Source: Streptomyces musisoli (GTDB lineage Bacteria > Actinomycetota > Actinomycetes > Streptomycetales > Streptomycetaceae). Taken from it: a stretch of 64,000 nucleotides of DNA. The position numbers were made by a program, and so were the translations under genes. The notes below the pieces were generated by a model. The model worked only from the letters and a program-made list of their open reading frames with translations, ran no database searches and was not told the DNA's origin. Every line of letters starts with the position of its first letter. The stretch's first letter is position 1. This document shows, one piece after another, positions 27,854-39,592 of the stretch. The stretch is taken from contig NZ_JAERRH010000003.1 of NCBI RefSeq assembly GCF_016741855.1, positions 496,001 to 560,000 on the forward strand, in the 5' to 3' direction.

Positions 27854-27980
27854 CGAATTCGTTCGCCTCCGATTCACTGGACCGCCTCGTACACCGCTCG
27901 TGCGAGGCCCCGTACTCCGCCCCACAACGGCACCCCCGCTCGTACGGGAATCGCTCCACCGGCGCAAAGGAAATCCGTCC

Positions 27981-29399
27981 ATGACCCCTGGTTCCGGACT
28001 TCAAGCAGGCCTGAAGAACCGCCATCTCACGATGATCGCCATCGGAGGTGTGATCGGTGCCGGACTCTTCGTCGGCTCCAGCACCGGCATCGCCACGGCG
28101 GGCCCCGGCATCCTGCTGTCGTACGCCCTCGTCGGCACCCTCGTCGTCCTCGTGATGCGGATGCTCGGCGAGATGTCCGCCGCCAACCCCACCTCCGGCT
28201 CCTTCTCCGCGCACGCCGACCGTGCCCTCGGCCCCTGGGCCGGCTTCTCGATCGGCTGGCTGTACTGGTTCTTCTGGGTCGTCGTGCTCGCCGTCGAGGC
28301 CACCGCCGGCGCGAAGATCCTCGAAGGCTGGGTCCCGGCCGTCCCGCAGTGGGGCTGGGCACTGATCGTGATGGTCGTCCTGACCGCGACCAACCTCGTC
28401 TCCGTCGGCTCCTACGGCGAGTTCGAGTTCTGGTTCGCCGGCATCAAGGTCGTGGCGATCGGCGCGTTCGTCGTCATCGGCCTGCTCGCCGTGTTCGGCG
28501 TGCTGCCGGGCGTGGACGCCGAGAAGGCGTCCTTCGGCAACCTCACCTCGCACGGCGGATTCCTGCCGCACGGTCCCGGCGCCATCCTCACCGGTGTGCT
28601 GCTGGTCGTCTTCTCCTTCATGGGCAGCGAGATCGCCACCCTGGCGGCCGGCGAGTCGGAGGACCCGCAGCGCGCGGTCACCAAGTCCACCAACAGCATC
28701 ATCTGGCGGATCGGCGTCTTCTACCTGGGCTCGATCCTGGTCGTGGTCTCGCTGCTGCCGTGGAACGACGCGTCCATCGCGAAGGACGGCTCCTACGTCG
28801 CCGCGCTGAACTCCCTCGGTATCGCGCACGCCGGCGAGGTCATGAACGTCATCGTGCTGACCTCGGTGCTGTCCTGCCTCAACTCGGGCCTCTACACGGC
28901 CTCCCGGATGGCCTTCTCGCTCGGCCAGCGCGGTGACGCGCCGAAGTCGTTCGCCCGCACCACCTCCCGCGGTGTGCCGCAGACCGCGATCCTGGCCTCG
29001 GTCGTCTTCGGCTTCGTGGCTGTTTTCTTCAACTACCAGTACCCGGACACCGTCTTCCTCTTCCTGCTCAACTCCAGCGGCGCGGTCGCCCTGTTCGTGT
29101 GGCTGGTCATCTGCTTCTCGCAGCTGCGGATGCGGAAGATCATCCAGCGTGAGGCGCCGGAGAAGCTCGTCGTGAAGATGTGGCTGTACCCGTACCTGAC
29201 CTGGGCGACGGCCGCGATGATCGTCTTCGTCCTGGTGTACATGCTGTTCGACACCGAGCACGACGGCCGGGAGACGGTGCTGCTGTCCCTGCTGGTCGCG
29301 GCGGTCGTGCTGGTGATCGCGGCGATCAAGCAGAAGATCACCGCGAACCGCCCGGCCCCCGCCGCCGAGGCACCGGCCGACAAGGTGTCCGTCGGCTGA
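27981..29399 (+). CDS. APC-family amino acid permease (GabP/AnsP type)
   Basis: The 472-residue, 12-segment amino acid-proton symporter starts at the ATG at 27981 after AAAGGAAATCCGTCC. The N-terminal signature GLKNRHLTMIAIGGVIGAG and FVGSSTGIATAGP is typical of the AAT/GABA-permease group, with the MRMLGEMSA motif near residue 60. Substrate is probably an amino acid or GABA. A paralogue of similar sequence lies at 37133-38515. Confidence 0.92.
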   Translation: MTPGSGLQAGLKNRHLTMIAIGGVIGAGLFVGSSTGIATAGPGILLSYALVGTLVVLVMRMLGEMSAANPTSGSFSAHADRALGPWAGFSIGWLYWFFWVVVLAVEATAGAKILEGWVPAVPQWGWALIVMVVLTATNLVSVGSYGEFEFWFAGIKVVAIGAFVVIGLLAVFGVLPGVDAEKASFGNLTSHGGFLPHGPGAILTGVLLVVFSFMGSEIATLAAGESEDPQRAVTKSTNSIIWRIGVFYLGSILVVVSLLPWNDASIAKDGSYVAALNSLGIAHAGEVMNVIVLTSVLSCLNSGLYTASRMAFSLGQRGDAPKSFARTTSRGVPQTAILASVVFGFVAVFFNYQYPDTVFLFLLNSSGAVALFVWLVICFSQLRMRKIIQREAPEKLVVKMWLYPYLTWATAAMIVFVLVYMLFDTEHDGRETVLLSLLVAAVVLVIAAIKQKITANRPAPAAEAPADKVSVG

Positions 29400-29743: not shown

Positions 29744-30334
29744 CTAGAGGCCCTCGCGCCGGCCGGCGAACTTCCAGGCGGTGGGCAGCGCGCCCATCGC
29801 CAGCGCGGCCTTGAGGGCGTCACCGATCAGGAACGGGGTGAGGCCGGCCGCGATCGCCTCGGACGCGGACAGGTGGGCCGCCAGGGCCAGGTAGGGAACG
29901 CCGACCGCGTAGACGACGGCCTCACCGAGCAGCATCGTGCCGGCCATGCGCAGCGGGGAGCGGTCGGCGCCGCGGCGGGCCAGGGCGCCGACGAGGGCGG
30001 AGGCGAGCAGCATGCCGAGGACGTAGCCGAAGGAGACCATGCCCGCGCCGGAGTCGCCGTTCGCGAACCAGGGCATCCCGGCCACGCCGGCGACCGCGTA
30101 CAGGGCGAGGGAGAGGAAGCCGCGGCGGGCGCCGAGGGTGGTGCCGACGAGCAGCGCGGCGAAGGTCTGGCCGGTCACCGGCACCGGGGATCCAGGAACC
30201 GGCACCGACAGCTGGGCCGCGACGCCGGTGAGCACGGCACCGCCGGCCACGAGGGCCGCGTCGCGGACGCGGGTGGCCGGGAGGAGGTCGGCGAGGACTG
30301 CGCCGGGGCGGGCGAGTGCGGTGGCGGTGCTCAT
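29744..30334 (-). CDS. bioY: Biotin transporter BioY (ECF transporter substrate-binding membrane protein)
   Basis: The ~196-residue protein has six hydrophobic segments and the BioY core pattern (QLSVPVPGSPVPVTGQTFAA, GARRGFLSLALYAVAGVAGM). I prefer the ATG at 30334, which has CGGAGTCACC upstream. A GTG at 30370 would add 12 residues. A -10-like TAGCGT lies just before that GTG. No bioM/bioN energising subunits are adjacent, so it either works alone or shares a general ECF module encoded elsewhere. Confidence 0.92.
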   Translation of the reverse strand: MSTATALARPGAVLADLLPATRVRDAALVAGGAVLTGVAAQLSVPVPGSPVPVTGQTFAALLVGTTLGARRGFLSLALYAVAGVAGMPWFANGDSGAGMVSFGYVLGMLLASALVGALARRGADRSPLRMAGTMLLGEAVVYAVGVPYLALAAHLSASEAIAAGLTPFLIGDALKAALAMGALPTAWKFAGRREGL

Positions 30335-30768
30335 GGTGACTCCGCGGGTGACGGGGACATGCTGGGACACGGCGACGCTATCCCAGGCGAGTCGGGCCGA
30401 TCACCGTCAGTGCTCGACAAAGGGCGGAACGAGAGCTTGGTGGGCTCCGGACAAAGAGTGCCCTCTACACCGGTCGGGGCGTGACACTGATCACTGAGGC
30501 CGAGATGTTTCGCTCACGCGACGGGGCATTGACGAGACTGTGCGGTTTCACCAAACGAACCCCGGTCGTCTGGCCGGATTCACCTTTCCTGTCCTACCCT
30601 TCCGGCCATGGCCGCCCAGTCCCGGAACCTCACCTCGCGTCGCTATGTCGACCTGCGACGCCAGGGCACGGCCACCTGTCGCCGTCCGGGGTAGGGCGGG
30701 CCTCGGCGCGCCTCGCCCGCTTCCGAGCTTGTGAGACGTGTCGGCCCCGTTCCCGAGGACGGTCCTCC
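30335..30768. other. Divergent regulatory region between bioY and the ROK regulator gene
   Basis: These 434 bp contain no supported gene. On the minus strand a TAGCGT -10-like hexamer about 45 bp before the bioY ATG is a plausible bioY promoter element. The ROK gene promoter is not obvious. Confidence 0.4.
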
Positions 30769-31965: not shown

Positions 31966-31982
31966 TTCAGAAACTCGGAATG

Positions 31983-32012
31983 TTGACAGGCGACGAGTCC
32001 GGCCGGGAACAT
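31983..32012 (+). promoter_or_regulatory. Promoter of the organosulfur operon, leaderless into a Cys-rich uORF
   Basis: A perfect TTGACA (31983-31988) is followed after 18 bp by GAACAT (32007-32012), which keeps the A2 and T6 of the TANNNT consensus. The predicted transcription start, 7-8 nt later, coincides with the ATG at 32020. No ribosome binding site precedes that ATG, consistent with leaderless translation. Confidence 0.6.
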
Positions 32013-32019
32013 CCTGGTC

Positions 32020-32058
32020 ATGACCCCGCACACAAGCTGTCGCACCCTCTGTTGCTGA
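32020..32058 (+). CDS. Cysteine-rich leader peptide MTPHTSCRTLCC (candidate cysteine attenuator)
   Basis: This 12-codon reading frame runs ATG ACC CCG CAC ACA AGC TGT CGC ACC CTC TGT TGC TGA. Three of its last six codons are Cys, the final two adjacent to the stop. It starts at the predicted transcription start of the organosulfur operon and ends 113 bp before the substrate-binding protein gene. Leaderless polycysteine ORFs that attenuate sulfur operons in response to charged Cys-tRNA are described in mycobacteria. By analogy, Cys limitation would stall the ribosome here and raise operon expression. That it is translated is inferred, not shown. Confidence 0.6.
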   Translation: MTPHTSCRTLCC

Positions 32059-32171
32059 CATGTTGCCGCGCATGAAGCGCGTGTTTCCCGCTGCGTGAGT
32101 CTTTCTTCTTCCGGTCCTTCTTCCCGGAATTCCTGCTGCGTTTCCCGCATTTTCCTCCTGGGAGTCCTCCC

Positions 32172-33212
32172 ATGCACCGTCGTACTTTTCTCATGTCCGC
32201 GCTGGGCGCGTCCGCCGCCGCCTGGGGCGTCGGCGGCTGCGCGAACGGCAGTGCCGCCGCCGACGCCGGCGCCGCCACCGAGCCGCTCGCCGCCACGGTT
32301 CCGGCCGGCACCAGCCTGAAGATCGCCTCGTACCAGGGCGTGCAGCAGCTCCTGTCCAGGCTGGCGAAGCTGCCCGAGCTGCCGTTCACGGTGTCCGACT
32401 GGGTGAACATCGGGGCGGGACCGGACGTCATCAACGCCTTCCGCGCCAAGTCCCTCGACCTCTCCGCCAACGCGGGCATCCCGCCGATCCAGGCCCACTA
32501 CCAGGGCTTCGACGCGAAGATCGTGGCGATCGACCTCACCCGCAAGCCCAACTACCTCTTCGCCACCAAGCCCGGCAGCGACATCCGCACGACCCGGGAC
32601 TTCAAGGGGAGGAAGCTGGCCTTCTCGCAGGGCCAGGCCCAGGGCGTCGTGCTGCTGCGGGCGCTGAAGCAGGCGGGCCTGGCCTACGACGAGGTGACGC
32701 TGGTCCCGCTGACCAGCAACCAGTTCCTCACCGCCCTTCAGTCCGGACAGGTGGACATCGCGCCGCTCGCCAACAGCCAGGCACCGGCGTATCTGAAGCA
32801 GTACGAGGCCAAGGGCGCCCGGGTCATCGAGACCGACGTCGTCGACCTGCTCAACCTGCTGTGGGCGCCGCAGTCCGTGCTGAACGACCCGGCGAAGGCC
32901 GCCGCGATCGCCGCGTACATCCCCCGGTGGGCCAAGGGCCAGGTGTGGCAGTACGAGCACCCGGACGTGTGGAACAGGGAGTTCTACGTCAAGACGCAGA
33001 ACCTGACCCTCGCCCAGGCGGAGGCCGTCACCAAGCTCGCCAACAAGCCGCTCTTCCCGCCCCGCTGGGACGAGGCGATCAAGTGGGAGCAGGAGACCGC
33101 CGACCTGCTCGCCGAGGGCGGCTTCGTGAAGAAGTTCGACGTCTCCTCGCTCTTCGACCACCGCTTCGAGCCGCTCGCCGCCAAGGCCGTACCCGAGGAG
33201 TACCGGAGGTGA
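32172..33212 (+). CDS. ABC transporter substrate-binding lipoprotein (aliphatic sulfonate/organosulfur, SsuA-like)
   Basis: The 346-residue protein has a twin-arginine-like signal (MHRRTFLMSALG) that ends in a lipobox (GVGGC-AN), so it is probably a membrane-anchored lipoprotein. The mature domain is SsuA/NMT1-like (VNIGAGPDVINAFRAKSLDL, KLAFSQGQAQGVVLLRALKQ). GGGAG lies 8 bp before the ATG. The surrounding permease, ATPase, monooxygenase and dioxygenase indicate organosulfur uptake. The exact ligand (alkanesulfonate, sulfate ester, taurine) cannot be read from sequence. Confidence 0.88.
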   Translation: MHRRTFLMSALGASAAAWGVGGCANGSAAADAGAATEPLAATVPAGTSLKIASYQGVQQLLSRLAKLPELPFTVSDWVNIGAGPDVINAFRAKSLDLSANAGIPPIQAHYQGFDAKIVAIDLTRKPNYLFATKPGSDIRTTRDFKGRKLAFSQGQAQGVVLLRALKQAGLAYDEVTLVPLTSNQFLTALQSGQVDIAPLANSQAPAYLKQYEAKGARVIETDVVDLLNLLWAPQSVLNDPAKAAAIAAYIPRWAKGQVWQYEHPDVWNREFYVKTQNLTLAQAEAVTKLANKPLFPPRWDEAIKWEQETADLLAEGGFVKKFDVSSLFDHRFEPLAAKAVPEEYRR

Positions 33213-34063
33213 CCACCGTGACCACGACCACCACGACGACCACGGCACCGGCGACAGCGGCCGGGCAGCTCCCCCGGGTCCGCAGGCGCCGCCGCCTGTC
33301 CCCCGGCCGGCGGCTGCCCGCCGCCCGGCTGGCCGGCCCGCTGGCCGTGCTCACCCTGTGGGCCGCCGCCTCCGCCGCCGGGTCCCTCGACCCGGCCGCC
33401 ATCCCCGCGCCCTGGACGGTGCTGAGGACCGCCGGCCACCTGTGGACCGACGGCACACTGCCCACCGATGTGCTGACCTCCCTGGAGCGGGCCGGCTACG
33501 GCTTCGCGATCGGCCTGACCGCCGGGGTGCTGCTCGCGCTCGCCTCCGGCCTCAGCCGGACCGGGGAAGCGCTGATCGACGGGACCGTGCAGCTCAACCG
33601 GGCGATCCCCACCCTCGGCCTGATACCGCTGTTCATCCTCTGGCTGGGCATCGGGGAGACCTTCAAGATCGCGATCATCGCGATCGTCGTCTACATCCCC
33701 CTCTATCTGAACACGCACGCCGCGCTGTCCGGCATCGACAGCCGCTTCGTCGAACTCGCCGAAGTGCAGGGGCTGTCCAGGTTCACCTTCATCCGCCAGG
33801 TCGTGATCCCCGGCGCGCTGCCCGGATTCTTCGTGGGACTCCGGCTCGGCGTCACCGGGTCATGGCTGGGCCTGGTGGTGCTGGAGCAGATCAACGCCAC
33901 CAGCGGACTCGGCTACCTGATGTTCCAGGCGCAGAACTACGGCCAGAGCGACGTCATCCTGGTCGGCCTGCTGATCTACGGCGTCTTCGGCCTGGTCTCC
34001 GACAGCGTGGTCCGTCTGATCGAACGGAGGGTGCTGGCATGGCGCCGCACACTGAGCAACTGA
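33209..34063 (+). CDS. ABC transporter permease (SsuC-like)
   Basis: The ~284-residue BPD_transp_1 permease has a Thr-rich and Arg-rich N-terminus, then six transmembrane segments with the EAA loop (FVELAEVQGLSRFTFIRQVV IPGALPG around residue 190). Two GTG starts are possible: 33209, overlapping the upstream stop as GTGA with GAGGAG 8 bp before it, or 33218 with GGAGG 8 bp before it. It overlaps the ATPase gene by 25 bp. Confidence 0.92.
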   Translation: MTTVTTTTTTTTAPATAAGQLPRVRRRRRLSPGRRLPAARLAGPLAVLTLWAAASAAGSLDPAAIPAPWTVLRTAGHLWTDGTLPTDVLTSLERAGYGFAIGLTAGVLLALASGLSRTGEALIDGTVQLNRAIPTLGLIPLFILWLGIGETFKIAIIAIVVYIPLYLNTHAALSGIDSRFVELAEVQGLSRFTFIRQVVIPGALPGFFVGLRLGVTGSWLGLVVLEQINATSGLGYLMFQAQNYGQSDVILVGLLIYGVFGLVSDSVVRLIERRVLAWRRTLSN

Positions 34064-34773
34064 CCCGGCCCGCCGTCCAGCTGCGCGGCCTGACCCGCTC
34101 CTTCGAGGGCCGTACGGTTCTCGACGGCATCGATCTGGACCTGCCCGCAGGGCAGTTCACGGCCCTGCTCGGGCACAGCGGCTCCGGCAAGTCCACCCTG
34201 CTGCGCGCGGTCGCCGGCCTGGACCACGGGGTGGCCGGGAGCGGGCAGCTCACCGCGCCCGAGCGGGTCTCGGTGGTGTTCCAGGACTCCCGGCTGCTGC
34301 CCTGGCGCCGGGTGCTGGAGAACGTCCTGCTCGGCCTGGACGGCAAGGACGCCGGGGCCCGCGGCCGGGCCGCGCTGGCGGAGGTGGGGCTGAAGGGCCG
34401 GGAGCGGGCCTGGCCGGGCGAGCTGTCCGGCGGCGAGGCCCAGCGGGCGGCGCTGGCCCGCTCCCTGGTCCGCGAGCCCGAACTGCTGCTGGCAGACGAG
34501 CCGTTCGGCGCGCTGGACGCGCTGACCCGGATCAGGATGCACCACCTGCTGCGCGATCTGTGGCAGCGCCACCGGCCGTCCGTGCTGCTGGTCACCCACG
34601 ACGTGGACGAGGCGATCGTGCTCGCCGACCGGGTCCTCGTCCTGGACCGGGGCCGGATCGGCCTGGACCTGACCATCGACCATCCCCATCCGCGTTCCTA
34701 CCGGGAGCCGGTGCTGGGCGAGTACCGGGAGCGGCTGCTGGCCGCGCTCGGCGTCACGGAGGACCACCGGTGA
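34039..34773 (+). CDS. ABC transporter ATP-binding protein (SsuB-like)
   Basis: This 244-residue ATPase has Walker A GHSGSGKST (near 44-52), Q-loop FQDSRLLPW, signature LSGGEAQRAALARSLV, Walker B LLLADEPFGALDAL and H-loop LVTHDVDEA. It energises the permease encoded upstream. It belongs to the sulfonate/nitrate/taurine group of importers. The start ATG is 25 bp inside the permease gene, and the stop overlaps the monooxygenase start as GTGA. Confidence 0.94.
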   Translation: MAPHTEQLTRPAVQLRGLTRSFEGRTVLDGIDLDLPAGQFTALLGHSGSGKSTLLRAVAGLDHGVAGSGQLTAPERVSVVFQDSRLLPWRRVLENVLLGLDGKDAGARGRAALAEVGLKGRERAWPGELSGGEAQRAALARSLVREPELLLADEPFGALDALTRIRMHHLLRDLWQRHRPSVLLVTHDVDEAIVLADRVLVLDRGRIGLDLTIDHPHPRSYREPVLGEYRERLLAALGVTEDHR

Positions 34774-36107
34774 CCACGAGAAGGCTCCACCTCAACGCGT
34801 TCCTGATGAACACCGGCCACCACGAGGCGTCCTGGCGGCTCCCGGAGAGCGATCCGTACGCGCACACCGACCTCGCCCACTACGCCGGCCTCGCGCGGAC
34901 CGCCGAGCGCGGCACCTTCGACTCGCTCTTCCTCGCCGACGGCCCCCAGCTGTGGAACAACCTCGCCCAGCGGCCGGCCGGCGCCCTGGAACCGCTCACC
35001 CTGCTGACCGCGCTGGCGACGGCCACCGAGCACATCGGGCTGATCGCCACCGCCTCGACCTCCTACAACTCCCCCTACAACCTTGCCCGCAAGTTCGCCT
35101 CGCTGGACATCATCAGCGGCGGCCGGGCCGGCTGGAACATCGTCACCACCGCAGGCGCCGAGGCCGCCCGCAACTTCGGCCTGGAGGCCGAGCCCGCGCA
35201 CGCCGAGCGGTACGCCCGCGCCGCCGAGTTCCTGGACGTGTCCCTCAAGCTGTGGGACAGCTGGGAGGACGACGCGATCGTCGCCGACAAGGCGGCCGGC
35301 GTCTGGGGCGACGACGGCAAGATCCACCCGCCCCGGCACCGGGGCACGTACTTCAGCGTGGCGGGCGCCCTCAACGTTCCCCGCTCCCCGCAGGGCTACC
35401 CGCTGCTGGTGCAGGCCGGCTCCTCCGAGGACGGCAAGGCGTTCGCCGCCCGGTACGCGGAGGCGGTGTTCACCGCCCAGCAGACCCTCGGCGACGCGCA
35501 GGCCTTCTACGCCGACCTCAAGTCCCGTACCGCGCGGGCCGGGCGCGACCCCGGGCACATCAAGGTGCTGCCCGGCATCGTCCCCGTGCTCGGGTCCACC
35601 GAGGCCGAGGCACGGGCGGCCGAGCAGCTGCTGGAGGACCACATCGTGTACGACCACGGAGTAGGCCGGCTGGAGAGCCTGCTGCAGCTGGAGCCCGGCA
35701 CCCTGGAGCTGGACGCCCCGCTGCCCGCCGACCTGCCGCCCGAGTCGGCCGTCGAAGGCGCCAAGAGCCGCTACACCCTGGTCGTGGAGCTGGCCCGGCG
35801 CGAGCGGCTCACCGTGCGGCAGCTGATCGGCCGGCTCGGCGGCGGACGCGGGCACCTCACCTTCGCCGGGACGCCCGGGCAGGTCGCCGACAAGATCGAG
35901 ACCTGGTTCACCGAGGGCGCCGCCGACGGCTTCAACATCATGCCCGCCGTGCTGCCCTCCGGCCTCGACGCCTTCGTCGAGCACGTCGTACCGCTGCTGC
36001 GCGCCCGCGGCCTGCTGCGCACCGAGTACGGCCCCCGCCGGACCCTGCGGGAGCGCTACGGCCTGCCCCGCCCGGCCAACCAGTACCTGACCCCCGCCCT
36101 CGTCTGA
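34770..36107 (+). CDS. Flavin-dependent monooxygenase, NtaA/SnaA/DszA (SoxA) family
   Basis: The ~445-residue luciferase-like TIM-barrel enzyme uses FMNH2 from a separate reductase. Typical motifs are LNAFLMNTGHHEASWR at the N-terminus, SLFLADGPQLW (near 53), and the NtaA-type substrate/FMN loop SGGRAGWNIVTTAGAEAARN (near 115). In this operon it probably desulfonates or oxidises an imported organosulfur compound. No flavin reductase is adjacent. The GTG start overlaps the ATPase stop. Confidence 0.9.
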   Translation: MTTRRLHLNAFLMNTGHHEASWRLPESDPYAHTDLAHYAGLARTAERGTFDSLFLADGPQLWNNLAQRPAGALEPLTLLTALATATEHIGLIATASTSYNSPYNLARKFASLDIISGGRAGWNIVTTAGAEAARNFGLEAEPAHAERYARAAEFLDVSLKLWDSWEDDAIVADKAAGVWGDDGKIHPPRHRGTYFSVAGALNVPRSPQGYPLLVQAGSSEDGKAFAARYAEAVFTAQQTLGDAQAFYADLKSRTARAGRDPGHIKVLPGIVPVLGSTEAEARAAEQLLEDHIVYDHGVGRLESLLQLEPGTLELDAPLPADLPPESAVEGAKSRYTLVVELARRERLTVRQLIGRLGGGRGHLTFAGTPGQVADKIETWFTEGAADGFNIMPAVLPSGLDAFVEHVVPLLRARGLLRTEYGPRRTLRERYGLPRPANQYLTPALV

Positions 36108-36121
36108 AAGGACCACCGCCC

Positions 36122-37012
36122 ATGTCCATCGAGATCACCAAGGTCACCGCACGCATCGGTGCGCGGGTGTCCGGCGTCGACGTCTCCGCGCCGCTCGCCC
36201 CGGAGGAGGTCGCCGCGATCCGCGAGGCCCTGAACGTGCACAAGGCGCTCGTCTTCGACGCCGGCCCCCTGGACGACACCGGCCAGCAGGCCTTCGCCCG
36301 CCACTTCGGCGACCTGACCACCGCGCACCCGACGGTCGGCGCGGTCGACGGCGCCCCCAACGTGCTGCCGGTCGACAGCGAGCGGGGCCGCGCCAACCAC
36401 TGGCACACCGACGTCACCTTCGTCCTCAACCCGCCGCAGGCCAGCACCCTGCGCTCGCTGACCGTCCCGCCGTACGGCGGCGAGACCCTGATCGCGAACG
36501 CGGCGGCCGCCTACCGCGACCTGCCGGAGCCGTTGCGGCGCCTCGCCGACACCCTGTGGGCGGAGCACACCAACGACTACGACTACGCGGTGCCGGACGA
36601 GGAGATCGACGAGGAGAAGGCCGCCCAGCGCGCGCAGTTCACCTCCATCAAGTACCGCACCGCCCACCCGGTGGTCCGCGTCCACCCGCTGACCGGCGAG
36701 CGGGGACTGTTCGTCGGCGGGTTCGCGCAGCGGATCGTCGGCCTGTCGGTCGGCGAGTCCCGCAAGGTCCTCGACCTGCTCCAGGCGTACGTCACCCGTC
36801 CGGAGAACGTGCTGCGCCACCGCTGGTCGGAGCGCCAGCTGGTGCTGTTCGACAACCGCATCACCCAGCACTACGCCATCGACAACTACGACGGCCTCCC
36901 GCGCCGCCTGCACCGGGTGACCGTCGCCGGTGACGTCCCGGTCGGCGTCGAGGGCAAGGAGAGCTACTCGGTCGAGGGCGACGCCTCGCACTACACCCCC
37001 GTGGCCGCGTAG
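36122..37012 (+). CDS. TauD/TfdA-family Fe(II)/2-oxoglutarate-dependent dioxygenase
   Basis: This 296-residue enzyme has Fe ligands H95 and D97 in NHWHTDVTF and a distal His near 250 in ITQHYAIDNY. The 2-oxoglutarate-binding Arg is in PRRLHRVTV. TauD-family enzymes hydroxylate taurine, alkylsulfates or aromatic ethers; the sulfur-uptake neighbours favour a sulfonate or sulfate ester. It is 14 bp behind the monooxygenase gene with AAAGGACCACCGCCC before the ATG, and it ends the operon. Confidence 0.92.
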   Translation: MSIEITKVTARIGARVSGVDVSAPLAPEEVAAIREALNVHKALVFDAGPLDDTGQQAFARHFGDLTTAHPTVGAVDGAPNVLPVDSERGRANHWHTDVTFVLNPPQASTLRSLTVPPYGGETLIANAAAAYRDLPEPLRRLADTLWAEHTNDYDYAVPDEEIDEEKAAQRAQFTSIKYRTAHPVVRVHPLTGERGLFVGGFAQRIVGLSVGESRKVLDLLQAYVTRPENVLRHRWSERQLVLFDNRITQHYAIDNYDGLPRRLHRVTVAGDVPVGVEGKESYSVEGDASHYTPVAA

Positions 37013-37051: not shown

Positions 37052-37132
37052 GGGCGGCTCCTTCGCCTCAGCGGACGGGCCGCCCAGACTGGCGGAGTTT
37101 TTGCCCGCCTATTGCACGGGAGAGCCGCGCCC

Positions 37133-38515
37133 ATGCCCAGCAGCACGACCACGGAGACGCCGCCGCAGCAGACGGACGCCTCCCTCTCCCACGGCCTCAA
37201 ACAGCGCCATCTGTCGATGATCGCCCTCGGTGGGGTGATCGGCGCCGGGCTGTTCGTCGGCTCCGGTGCGGGCATCGCCGCGGCCGGCCCGTCCATCGTG
37301 ATCGCCTACACCGTCTCCGGCCTCCTGGTGATGCTGGTGATGCGGATGCTCGGCGAGATGTCGGCCGCCTACCCGTCCTCCGGCTCCTTCTCGGCGCACG
37401 CCGAGCGGGCGATCGGCCCGTGGGCCGGCTTCGCGGCCGGCTGGTCCTTCTGGATCCTGCTGTGCACCGCCGTCGGCCTGGAGGGCATCGGCGCCGCGCA
37501 CATCGTCTCCGGCTGGCTGCCCGGCACCTCCGAGTGGCTGTGGGTCGCGCTGTTCATGGTGGTCTTCTGCGGGACGAACCTGGCCGCCGTGAAGAACTTC
37601 GGCGAGTTCGAGTTCTGGTTCGCCGCGCTGAAGGTCGGCGCGATCAGCCTCTTCCTGGTCCTCGGCGTACTGGCCATCGCCGGTGTGCTGCCCGGCACCG
37701 ACGCCCCCGGCACCTCGAACCTGACGGACTTCCTGCCGCACGGCAGCAACGGCCTGATCATCGGCCTGCTCGCGTCGGTCTTCGCGTACGGCGGCCTGGA
37801 GACGGTCACCATCGCCGCGGCCGAGTCCGAGGACCCGGTCAGGGGCGTAGCGTCCGCCGTCCGCACGGCGATGTGGCGCATCGCGCTGTTCTACATCGGC
37901 TCCATGGCGGTCGTCGTCACCCTGGTCCCGTGGGACTCCGAGGACGTCGTGGCGAAGGGCCCGTACGTCGCCGCCCTCGACCACCTGGGGATCTCCGGCG
38001 CGGGCCAGCTGATGAACGTGGTCGTCCTGGTCGCGCTGCTGTCCGCCATGAACGCCAACATCTACGGCTCCTCGCGCATCGCCTACTCCCTGGTGCAGCG
38101 CGGGCAGGGCCCCAAGGTGCTGGGCAGGCTGTCCGGCGGGGTCCCGCGGATCGCGGTGCTCGTCTCCTGCGTGCTCGGCTTCGTCTGCGTGCTGCTCAGC
38201 TACTGGCGGCCGGACGACGTCTTCAAGTGGCTGCTGAACATGATCGGCGCGGTCATCCTGGTCGTCTGGATCTTCATCGCGGTCTCCCAGCTGCTGCTGC
38301 GCCGCCGCATCGAGCGCGAGACCCCCGACCGGCTGGTCGTGCGCATGTGGGCGTTCCCGTGGCTGACCTGGGTCGCGCTGGCCGGAATGGCCGCGATCTT
38401 CGTACTGATGGCCCGCGAGCCGGACACCCGGCTGCAGCTGTACTCGACGGGCGGCATGACGCTGGTCCTGGCCGCGGTCGGCTACGCCTGGCAGCGGGCG
38501 CGCGCCAGGCGCTGA
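37133..38515 (+). CDS. APC-family amino acid permease (second paralogue)
   Basis: The 460-residue, 12-segment protein is clearly related to the permease at 27981-29399 (LKQRHLSMIALGGVIGAGLF, MRMLGEMSAAYPSSGSFSAH). I chose the ATG at 37133, with GGGAGAG upstream; a TTG at 37112 would be in frame but is less likely. A PHO-box-like repeat precedes it, suggesting control by phosphate status or by PhoP cross-talk with nitrogen metabolism. Confidence 0.9.
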   Translation: MPSSTTTETPPQQTDASLSHGLKQRHLSMIALGGVIGAGLFVGSGAGIAAAGPSIVIAYTVSGLLVMLVMRMLGEMSAAYPSSGSFSAHAERAIGPWAGFAAGWSFWILLCTAVGLEGIGAAHIVSGWLPGTSEWLWVALFMVVFCGTNLAAVKNFGEFEFWFAALKVGAISLFLVLGVLAIAGVLPGTDAPGTSNLTDFLPHGSNGLIIGLLASVFAYGGLETVTIAAAESEDPVRGVASAVRTAMWRIALFYIGSMAVVVTLVPWDSEDVVAKGPYVAALDHLGISGAGQLMNVVVLVALLSAMNANIYGSSRIAYSLVQRGQGPKVLGRLSGGVPRIAVLVSCVLGFVCVLLSYWRPDDVFKWLLNMIGAVILVVWIFIAVSQLLLRRRIERETPDRLVVRMWAFPWLTWVALAGMAAIFVLMAREPDTRLQLYSTGGMTLVLAAVGYAWQRARARR

Positions 38516-38571: not shown

Positions 38572-39592
38572 GCAACACGAGTGATCAACTGGTTGTGGCC
38601 AGGAGCTTGGCGAGGCGCTCGGCTGGGGTTTCCCAGCCGAGCGTTTTGCGTGGGCGGCCGTTCAGCTCGGCGGCCACGACATCCAGGCTGGCGCGGGTGT
38701 GGACGGACAGGTCGGTGCTCTTGGGGAAGTACTGCCGCAGCAGGCCGTTGGTGTTCTCGTTGGAGCCGCGTTGCCAGGGGCTGGCTGGGTCGCAGAAGTA
38801 GACCGGGACGTCGGTGGCGACGGTGAAGGAGCCGTGGGCGGCCATCTCAGCGCCCTGGTCCCAGGTCAAGGACTGCACCAGGTGAGCGGGCAGTGTCTGG
38901 ACGGTTTCCACGAGCGCGTCGCGAACGTGTTCGGCGGTGCGGTCTTCGGGCAGGTGAAGCAGCATCACGTAGCGGGTGGCGCGTTCGACGAGGGTGCCCA
39001 GATCGTCTCGTGGGCCACGCGCATCTCCGGCCGGTCGGGAAACTGTGCCCGCAGAGCCTGGCAGATCTGTTCGGGGCTCCACCGTATGGACAGGCGGTGC
39101 TGGATGAAGCCGCGCAGTTGCGGGTTCTGGCCGATCTTCCCGGGCTTGGGGCGGGGCCGGCGGGCCTGTGCGCGGGCGTGGGCGGCGTGCGGCCGGTACT
39201 GGCCGTTGCCCGGGTGCCGGTTGCGCCGGATTTCGCGGCTGATGGTGGACGGGCTGCGGCCCAGCTCGGCCGCTATCTGCCGGATGGTGGCCTTCTCCCG
39301 CAGCCGGTCGGCGATGTGGATGCGGTCGGCCTCGCGTAGGTAGCGGGACGGACCCTCGGGCAACGCCACAGCGAGCACCGGCGGTCTCGCCTTGTCCTTG
39401 CCCCAGGCGCCCCGGCCGTTGCGCCATCGCTTGCCCGTCCGGGAGTTGATCCCGACGCGTCTGCATGCTTCGACGCTGGTCAGGCCCTGGTCCATGAGCC
39501 GGAAGTATTCCTCCCGCTCACGGACCAGGAGCTTGCGGCCTAGAACCCAAGGACACGTGGGGGCCTTTCTGTTGTCCTGGATCAGTTGTTGC
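38572..39592 (-). mobile_element. IS30-family insertion sequence remnant
   Basis: A ~1.02 kb element carries a decayed IS30-type transposase. Imperfect terminal inverted repeats can be proposed: GCAACACGAGTGATC at the left and, reading inward from the right, GCAACAACTGATC (two-base gap). The right end abuts the -10 region of sodF. Boundaries are uncertain because the repeats are degenerate and no clear target duplication is seen. The deletion within the transposase shows that the element is inactive. Confidence 0.65.
38585..39495 (-). pseudogene. IS30-family transposase with internal deletion and frameshift
   Basis: The N-terminal part (helix-turn-helix: ADRLREKATIRQIAAELGRS; RWSPEQICQALRAQFPDRPE) runs normally to AHETI and then jumps, in another frame, to GTLVERATRYVMLLHLPED at about 39000. 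The intervening segment, which in IS30 transposases carries the first catalytic Asp, is missing (roughly 75 codons by comparison with family members as I know them). The downstream Asp (LTWDQGAEM) and Glu (NENTNGLLRQYFPK) remain. Coding similarity also extends upstream of the ATG at 39495 to about 39545 (LGRKLLVREREEYFRL). Confidence 0.85.

Follow-up and report, generated by a model that had tools for sequence, protein, structure and literature searches.

The Streptomyces operon that opens at position 32172 of the window (the whole 64,000-nucleotide stretch of DNA analysed here) is likely to be controlled by a cysteine-responsive attenuator: a leaderless upstream frame (uORF) encoding MTPHTSCRTLCC lies at the 5′ end of ssuACB and of the monooxygenase and TauD-family genes that follow, and would sense cysteine supply on their behalf. 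We make this claim for the sensor and its role, because the frame, its Cys codons and its promoter are kept, in one form or another, in 80 loci and Cys7 and Cys11 are nearly always TGT. Conservation extends from the promoter, the frame and its Cys codons to the choice of codon, the operon and the hairpins of the leader.

The promoter consists of TTGACA (31983-31988, forward strand), an 18-nt spacer, GAACAT (32007-32012, forward strand) and a further 7 nt before the uORF ATG, with both hexamers where the first-pass annotation had placed them. The frame occupies 32020-32058 of the forward strand (ATG ACC CCG CAC ACA AGC TGT CGC ACC CTC TGT TGC TGA, stop at 32056-32058). Its 12 codons include Cys at positions 7 (TGT, 32038-32040), 11 and 12 (TGT TGC, 32050-32055), the Cys-Cys pair directly precedes the stop, and no Shine-Dalgarno (SD) sequence lies 5′ of the ATG at 32020; the frame length, the Cys positions, the stop and the missing SD had been recorded earlier, and the Cys codons are also kept across loci. 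From the promoter geometry, the transcription start would be the A of this ATG, 32020, as had been proposed. Leaderless promoters of Streptomyces have been described as TAnnnT, with A2 and T6 strict and the start on average 6.3 nt away (PMC8079986); GAACAT with its 7-nt gap fits this pattern, which was defined in S. lividans. A generic promoter scan did not report the uORF promoter because GAACAT matches TATAAT at too few positions.

An AT-rich box, TTCAGAAACTCGGAATG (31966-31982, forward strand), abuts the -35 element on its 5′ side and is conserved among loci, the mean identity between loci reaching 86% over its last 8 bases. It has one copy in its own genome when up to three mismatches are allowed, and could be a regulator site or an UP element.

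All five operon genes lie on the forward strand. They encode an SsuA/NMT1-like substrate-binding protein (32172-33212; PF09084, and TIGR01728 at E=2e-29, below the cut-off), an SsuC-like ABC permease (33209-34063; 80/80 loci), an SsuB-like ABC ATPase (34039-34773; 80/80 loci), a luciferase-like monooxygenase of the NtaA/DmoA family (34770-36107; TIGR03860 at 544 bits, over the cut-off; 77/80 loci) and a TauD/TfdA-family dioxygenase (36122-37012; PF02668; 75/80 loci). Together with a ROK gene upstream they are found in 75-80 of the 80 loci. These family matches agree with the earlier description of an organosulfur operon with sulfonate-type uptake and two oxygenases, and at the level of protein families we infer that the substrates are sulfonate-type. 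Around the operon, amino-acid permease genes on the same, forward strand (27900-29399 and 37112-38515) flank the ROK-ssu cluster, a BioY gene lies at 29744-30370 on the reverse strand, and overlapping reverse-strand frames 3′ of the operon (38585-39495) look by eye like a frameshifted IS30-like transposase.

The 80 orthologous Streptomyces loci were fetched by similarity of the downstream binding protein only, and the sample is thus not selected for the leader. All 80 have the promoter together with a leader frame rich in Cys. The expectation that orthologous leaders would keep both the short frame and the Cys codons within it is borne out: 78 loci have a short frame with the tail CR(T/A)xCC before the stop or one near it, of the type (S/H/T/Y)CR(T/A/I)xCC, and the other two carry a leader like mycobacterial Ms5788A; one of the variant tails (L017) ends in TSCRTECHAFCC. 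As some form of the frame is kept at every locus, the proposal that it is a built-in sensor of cysteine is very probably correct. TTGAC is invariant and lies 37 nt from the uORF ATG (36 nt in four loci), and the -10 hexamer is NANNNT, with A2 and T6, in 78/78 loci at 6-7 nt from the ATG, which agrees with the proposed transcription start. Between loci, pairwise identity averages 1.0 for the -35 hexamer, 0.91 for the -10 and 0.53 for the spacer between them; it is 0.91 for the SCRTLCC tail with its stop, against 0.40 for nucleotides 25-60 past the stop. Frame lengths are limited to 8, 11, 12 or 16 codons: the N-terminal half of the peptide is free to vary or is missing, and the CxxxCC spacing is kept. 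An ATG pinned to the promoter, combined with indels that are all whole codons, is strong evidence from conserved geometry that the frame is translated from its 5′ AUG.

When the window's own genome was searched for the general pattern, for the upstream box and with a covariance model, only the window locus was returned, and a looser tail pattern added matches there that were chance-like, as numerous as in a reversed control. Of 296 Streptomyces genomes, 58 contain the tail pattern, each a single time, and a class-wide scan for the architecture in 297 genomes found only scattered chance-like matches outside Streptomyces. One of two look-alike frames with the sequence MSLCTCC, at L099, was rejected since no sulfur gene follows it. 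Four loci (L049, L080, L058 and L057) carry a tandem duplication of TGTTGCTGACACG directly 3′ of the uORF stop; this segment comprises the uORF end and the post-stop arm, and its duplication leaves a second copy of the Cys-Cys-stop downstream.

Codon choice within the frame is nearly fixed. Counted over the window and 78 loci (79 in all), Cys7 is TGT in 78, Cys11 is TGT in 79 and Cys12 is TGC in 78, and the stop is TGA in all; in the long ORFs of these loci, rich in G+C at third codon positions, TGT appears 239 times and TGC 957 times, or about 20% TGT. The CGC codon after the Cys7 TGT and the C 3′ of the stop are conserved as nucleotides too. The end of the uORF can also form a hairpin, H1 (UGUCGCA-loop-UGC-U-GACA, 32038-32060, forward strand), with all 7 pairs in 69/79 loci and 6/7 in the other 10, although this conservation is confounded with that of the codons.

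Such nucleotide conservation, with its invariant TGT and CGC codons, the C past the stop and an H1 that can form in all loci, is what one would expect of a protein-binding site in DNA or RNA, an operator within which the frame is incidental. We regard this as improbable: the ATG stays 36-37 nt from TTGAC even though frame lengths differ by whole codons, one locus (L062) swaps its Cys codons synonymously, with Cys7 changed to TGC and Cys12 to TGT, two loci keep the promoter but follow it with a longer Cys leader of another kind, and TGT is invariant in unrelated Cys leaders as well. The conserved CxxxCC spacing would equally suit a Cys-rich metal- or thiol-binding miniprotein, with the peptide itself as the product. 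That the peptide shrinks to 8 residues, with an N-terminal half that varies or is absent, and that codon identity is conserved and not the residue alone, makes this idea hardly credible.

The two loci with the longer leader (L045:4654-4737 and L069:4459-4542) pair a window-type promoter with MSS(S/A)RVQVPLTKCRVVDLMRVARTRCC in place of the SCRTLCC peptide. This leader matches NF042933, the Ms5788A profile, at E 0.008 (15.8 bits) to 0.019, below the cut-off of 45. The two loci amount to a natural swap of leader peptides behind the same promoter and provide ready-made experiments.

Profile searches of the window's genome found eight sites that pass the NF042934 cut-off and one that passes the NF042933 cut-off, giving about nine known-type Cys leaders, mostly 5′ of sulfur genes; judged by eye, the genes that follow include those for a sulfurtransferase, a cysteine dioxygenase-like protein, a MoaD-like protein, an SfnG-like monooxygenase, a nitrite/sulfite reductase, a flavin reductase-like protein and others. 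Neither profile matched at the MTPHTSCRTLCC frame in these searches, and no VDL motif is seen there by eye; lacking the VDLxR....C motif, MTPHTSCRTLCC does not belong to the NF042933 or NF042934 peptide families. A second Cys leader lies within the window, MAAQSRNLTSRRYVDLRRQGTATCRRPG followed by a stop (30608-30694, forward strand), with TACCCT 7 nt 5′ of its ATG. It ends 74 nt 5′ of the likely start of the ROK-family gene (ATG 30769), and a leader of this type, with TGT as its Cys codon, precedes the ROK gene in 67/67 orthologous loci with full flanks.

The preference for TGT extends to the known-type leaders. The Cys nine residues past the Asp of VDL is encoded by TGT in 35/35 of those in Streptomyces, and in 62/62 when class-wide NF042933 matches are included (a set that contains L154-L170, L174-L199 and L200-L228), spanning at least 15 actinobacterial families as counted from labels. 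TGT use in genes is roughly 15-20%, against 62/62 at this key Cys. The remaining Cys codons of these peptides are mostly TGC, and third positions adjoining the invariant TGT vary, the commonest base reaching 45-87%. The leaders were found via amino-acid profiles, and the search therefore did not favour a codon choice. In the last Cys-Cys pair of the L045 leader, the invariant TGT encodes the first residue, which corresponds to Cys11 of the window frame.

We wondered whether one rule is shared by all of these leaders: the sensing codon of actinobacterial Cys leaders would always be a wobble-read UGU, and the SCRTLCC type would be a stripped-down, VDL-less form of at least 8 codons, interchangeable with the longer ones behind a single promoter. 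We put this forward tentatively, with slightly less than even confidence. Leu leaders are known to sense through rare codons. By our proposal UGU would be selected because slower decoding feels a Cys-tRNA shortage first, and a single tRNA-Cys(GCA), reading UGU by wobble, would decode it more slowly. An invariant UGU in at least 15 families points to a codon-level sensor, and one synonymous base change could separate tRNA shortage from nascent-peptide arrest.

Applied to the window, such an attenuator would work as follows. RNA polymerase would begin transcription with the A of the uORF start codon, as the promoter geometry suggests, and a ribosome would load on the 5′ AUG and read the 12 codons. 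With ample Cys-tRNA, UGU7, UGU11 and UGC12 would be passed, the ribosome would leave at UGA and operon expression would stay low. When Cys-tRNA is short, the ribosome would stall at the terminal UGU codons and the operon would presumably be switched on, both the stalling and the direction of the response being part of the model, and sulfonate-type compounds could then be imported and oxidised for sulfur.

The RNA between the uORF stop and the start codon is 113 nt long in the window and 85-405 nt among loci. The G+C-rich hairpin with CGCGC (32067-32071) and GCGCG (32077-32081) that had been noted past the stop is present and shows covariation; this hairpin, H2 (32065-32084, forward strand), lies 8-12 nt past the uORF stop, and one of its outer pairs is C-G, U-A, A-U or U-G depending on the locus. 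A further hairpin, H3 (32089-32140, forward strand; consensus arms GCGUGAAUUCC and GGAAUUCCGC), lies in pyrimidine-rich RNA and is degenerate in the window; when a longer stretch is folded, only its inner part is kept. A covariance model built from 23 loci recognised the window as well as almost every locus (82 matches, a few of them weak). Sixteen of the 19 H2/H3 pairs changed on both sides, against 7.9 ± 1.7 after shuffling, in an alignment that was fitted to the structure, and slid structures scored worse than the real one in this count. The whole leader folds modestly better than shuffles (z -1.3), the post-stop hairpin region having a mean z of -0.7. None of 4227 Rfam models matched at E≤1.

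H3 lies inside a pyrimidine-rich untranslated stretch (32059-32159, forward strand), which in the window contains 36 T, 35 C, 22 G and 8 A. Its family mean is 68% pyrimidine, compared with 50% (sd 6.6) in random windows, and its C/G ratio is 1.77. Immediately downstream, the SD GGGAG (32160-32164) falls in a predicted 5-bp hairpin, UGGGA-GUCC-UCCCA (32159-32172, forward strand), that reaches the A of the ssuA AUG and has little covariation.

The distance from frame to operon bears on a proposal made for mycobacteria, in which leaderless small ORFs are coupled to the downstream gene (PMC4633059): by analogy, the frame here would merely deliver ribosomes to ssuA, by coupling or reinitiation, and cysteine would not be sensed. 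With 85-405 nt from frame stop to start codon, hairpins in between and three conserved Cys codons left unexplained, we find this very unlikely.

For the cysteine-responsive attenuator itself, two output steps deserve weight. One is premature termination in the pyrimidine-rich leader, by Rho and perhaps with H2/H3, to which we give a little under an even chance. The other, nearly as plausible, is translational attenuation as in M. smegmatis with the same sensor, in which a masked ribosome binding site (RBS) of ssuA is opened by the stalled ribosome. We lean slightly towards termination, and towards Rho because the gap is long and pyrimidine-rich, as suggested for mycobacterial cys leaders (PMC1262725). 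An intrinsic terminator, taken as a stable stem with a U tract, was sought before ssuA and only weak sites were found; the H2/H3 tails are mixed pyrimidine. A simple Rho model has a difficulty of its own: that a ribosome stalls upstream is not enough to account for the protection of a loading site downstream.

Masking draws support from the hairpin that predicted folds make between the SD and the spacer UCCUCCC (family mean unpaired probability 0.14), from the closest studied relatives, which PMC9031893 and PMC13236596, citing Canestrari 2020, report to act at translation, and from the Ms5788A-like leader found at the orthologous locus in L045 and L069. Against this, neither the uORF tail nor the post-stop RNA pairs better with the RBS of its own locus than with RBSs of other loci, since native duplex energies were not better than swapped ones (an indirect comparison of low power). 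Predicted SD accessibility was likewise equal, at 0.13-0.15, with a ribosome parked at Cys7, Cys11, Cys12 or the stop (also indirect and of low power), and at the same four positions H3 was unchanged and no equilibrium fold switch appeared. The SD hairpin shows little covariation, and the 85-405 nt between frame and start codon also sits awkwardly with masking. The first-pass annotation had drawn a specific output, pairing CTCC (32155-32158) with GGGAG (32160-32164). Both motifs are present, but they are 1 nt apart, so the pairing as drawn would leave a 1-nt loop and no local hairpin is possible. Nor did SD/anti-SD pairing survive as the output in a wider sense: folding predictions pair the SD with the UCCC that follows it, and a long-range version was rejected, as native and swapped energies gave no sign that the RBS has coevolved to pair with the uORF or the post-stop RNA.

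Attenuators related to this one in some respects have been described elsewhere. S. lividans TK24 has leaderless leader peptides, as in the window, at leuL, trpL, ilvL, metL and others, with no Cys leader in the list of eight (PMC8079986). uORFC-8-2, which precedes cysS in Rhodobacterales, resembles the window frame in its tandem Cys codons and in the ribosome-mediated attenuation proposed for it, but it has an intrinsic terminator, is dominated by UGC and belongs to another phylum (PMC8632094). Terminator-less Cys leaders were predicted 5′ of Mycobacterium cys operons by Seliverstov 2005 (PMC1262725). The cys/cbs leaders of Mycobacterium, P. acnes and B. longum in that study have Cys near the stop and no conserved terminator, like the window, and a pyrimidine-rich stretch suggested as a Rho site; the window leader is also pyrimidine-rich. 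That study includes no Streptomyces cys leaders, however, whereas the window combines conserved hairpins with an organosulfur operon. The NF042934 cis_reg_atten leaders occur in the same genome, mostly at sulfur genes, and share with MTPHTSCRTLCC a TGT key Cys and the sequence TGT-CGC, but they have a VDLxR....C type motif that is missing in MTPHTSCRTLCC.

The SCRTLCC-type leader is undescribed in NCBIfam, Rfam and the literature searched; many subscription papers fall outside that literature, which makes the absence weak evidence of novelty. At 8-16 codons such frames are too short for profile libraries and easily overlooked in annotation.

The nearest comparison is with the polycysteine short ORFs of mycobacteria. 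In M. smegmatis, the action of such Cys leaders is reported by PMC9031893, citing Canestrari 2020, and RBS masking is reported by PMC13236596 and PMC9031893. As described in PMC9031893, PMC13236596 and PMC9094748, Ms5788A and its relatives are likewise leaderless, with terminal Cys codons, at sulfur genes. Relative to the Ms5788A type (NF042933), frames of the window's type lack VDL..R, are 8-16 codons long as opposed to about 27, and have a spaced C-CC where Ms5788A has a run of Cys. The window frame would extend cysteine-sensing leaderless frames from mycobacteria to organosulfur use in Streptomyces and, judged by its anatomy, MTPHTSCRTLCC would work most like the mycobacterial polycysteine attenuators.
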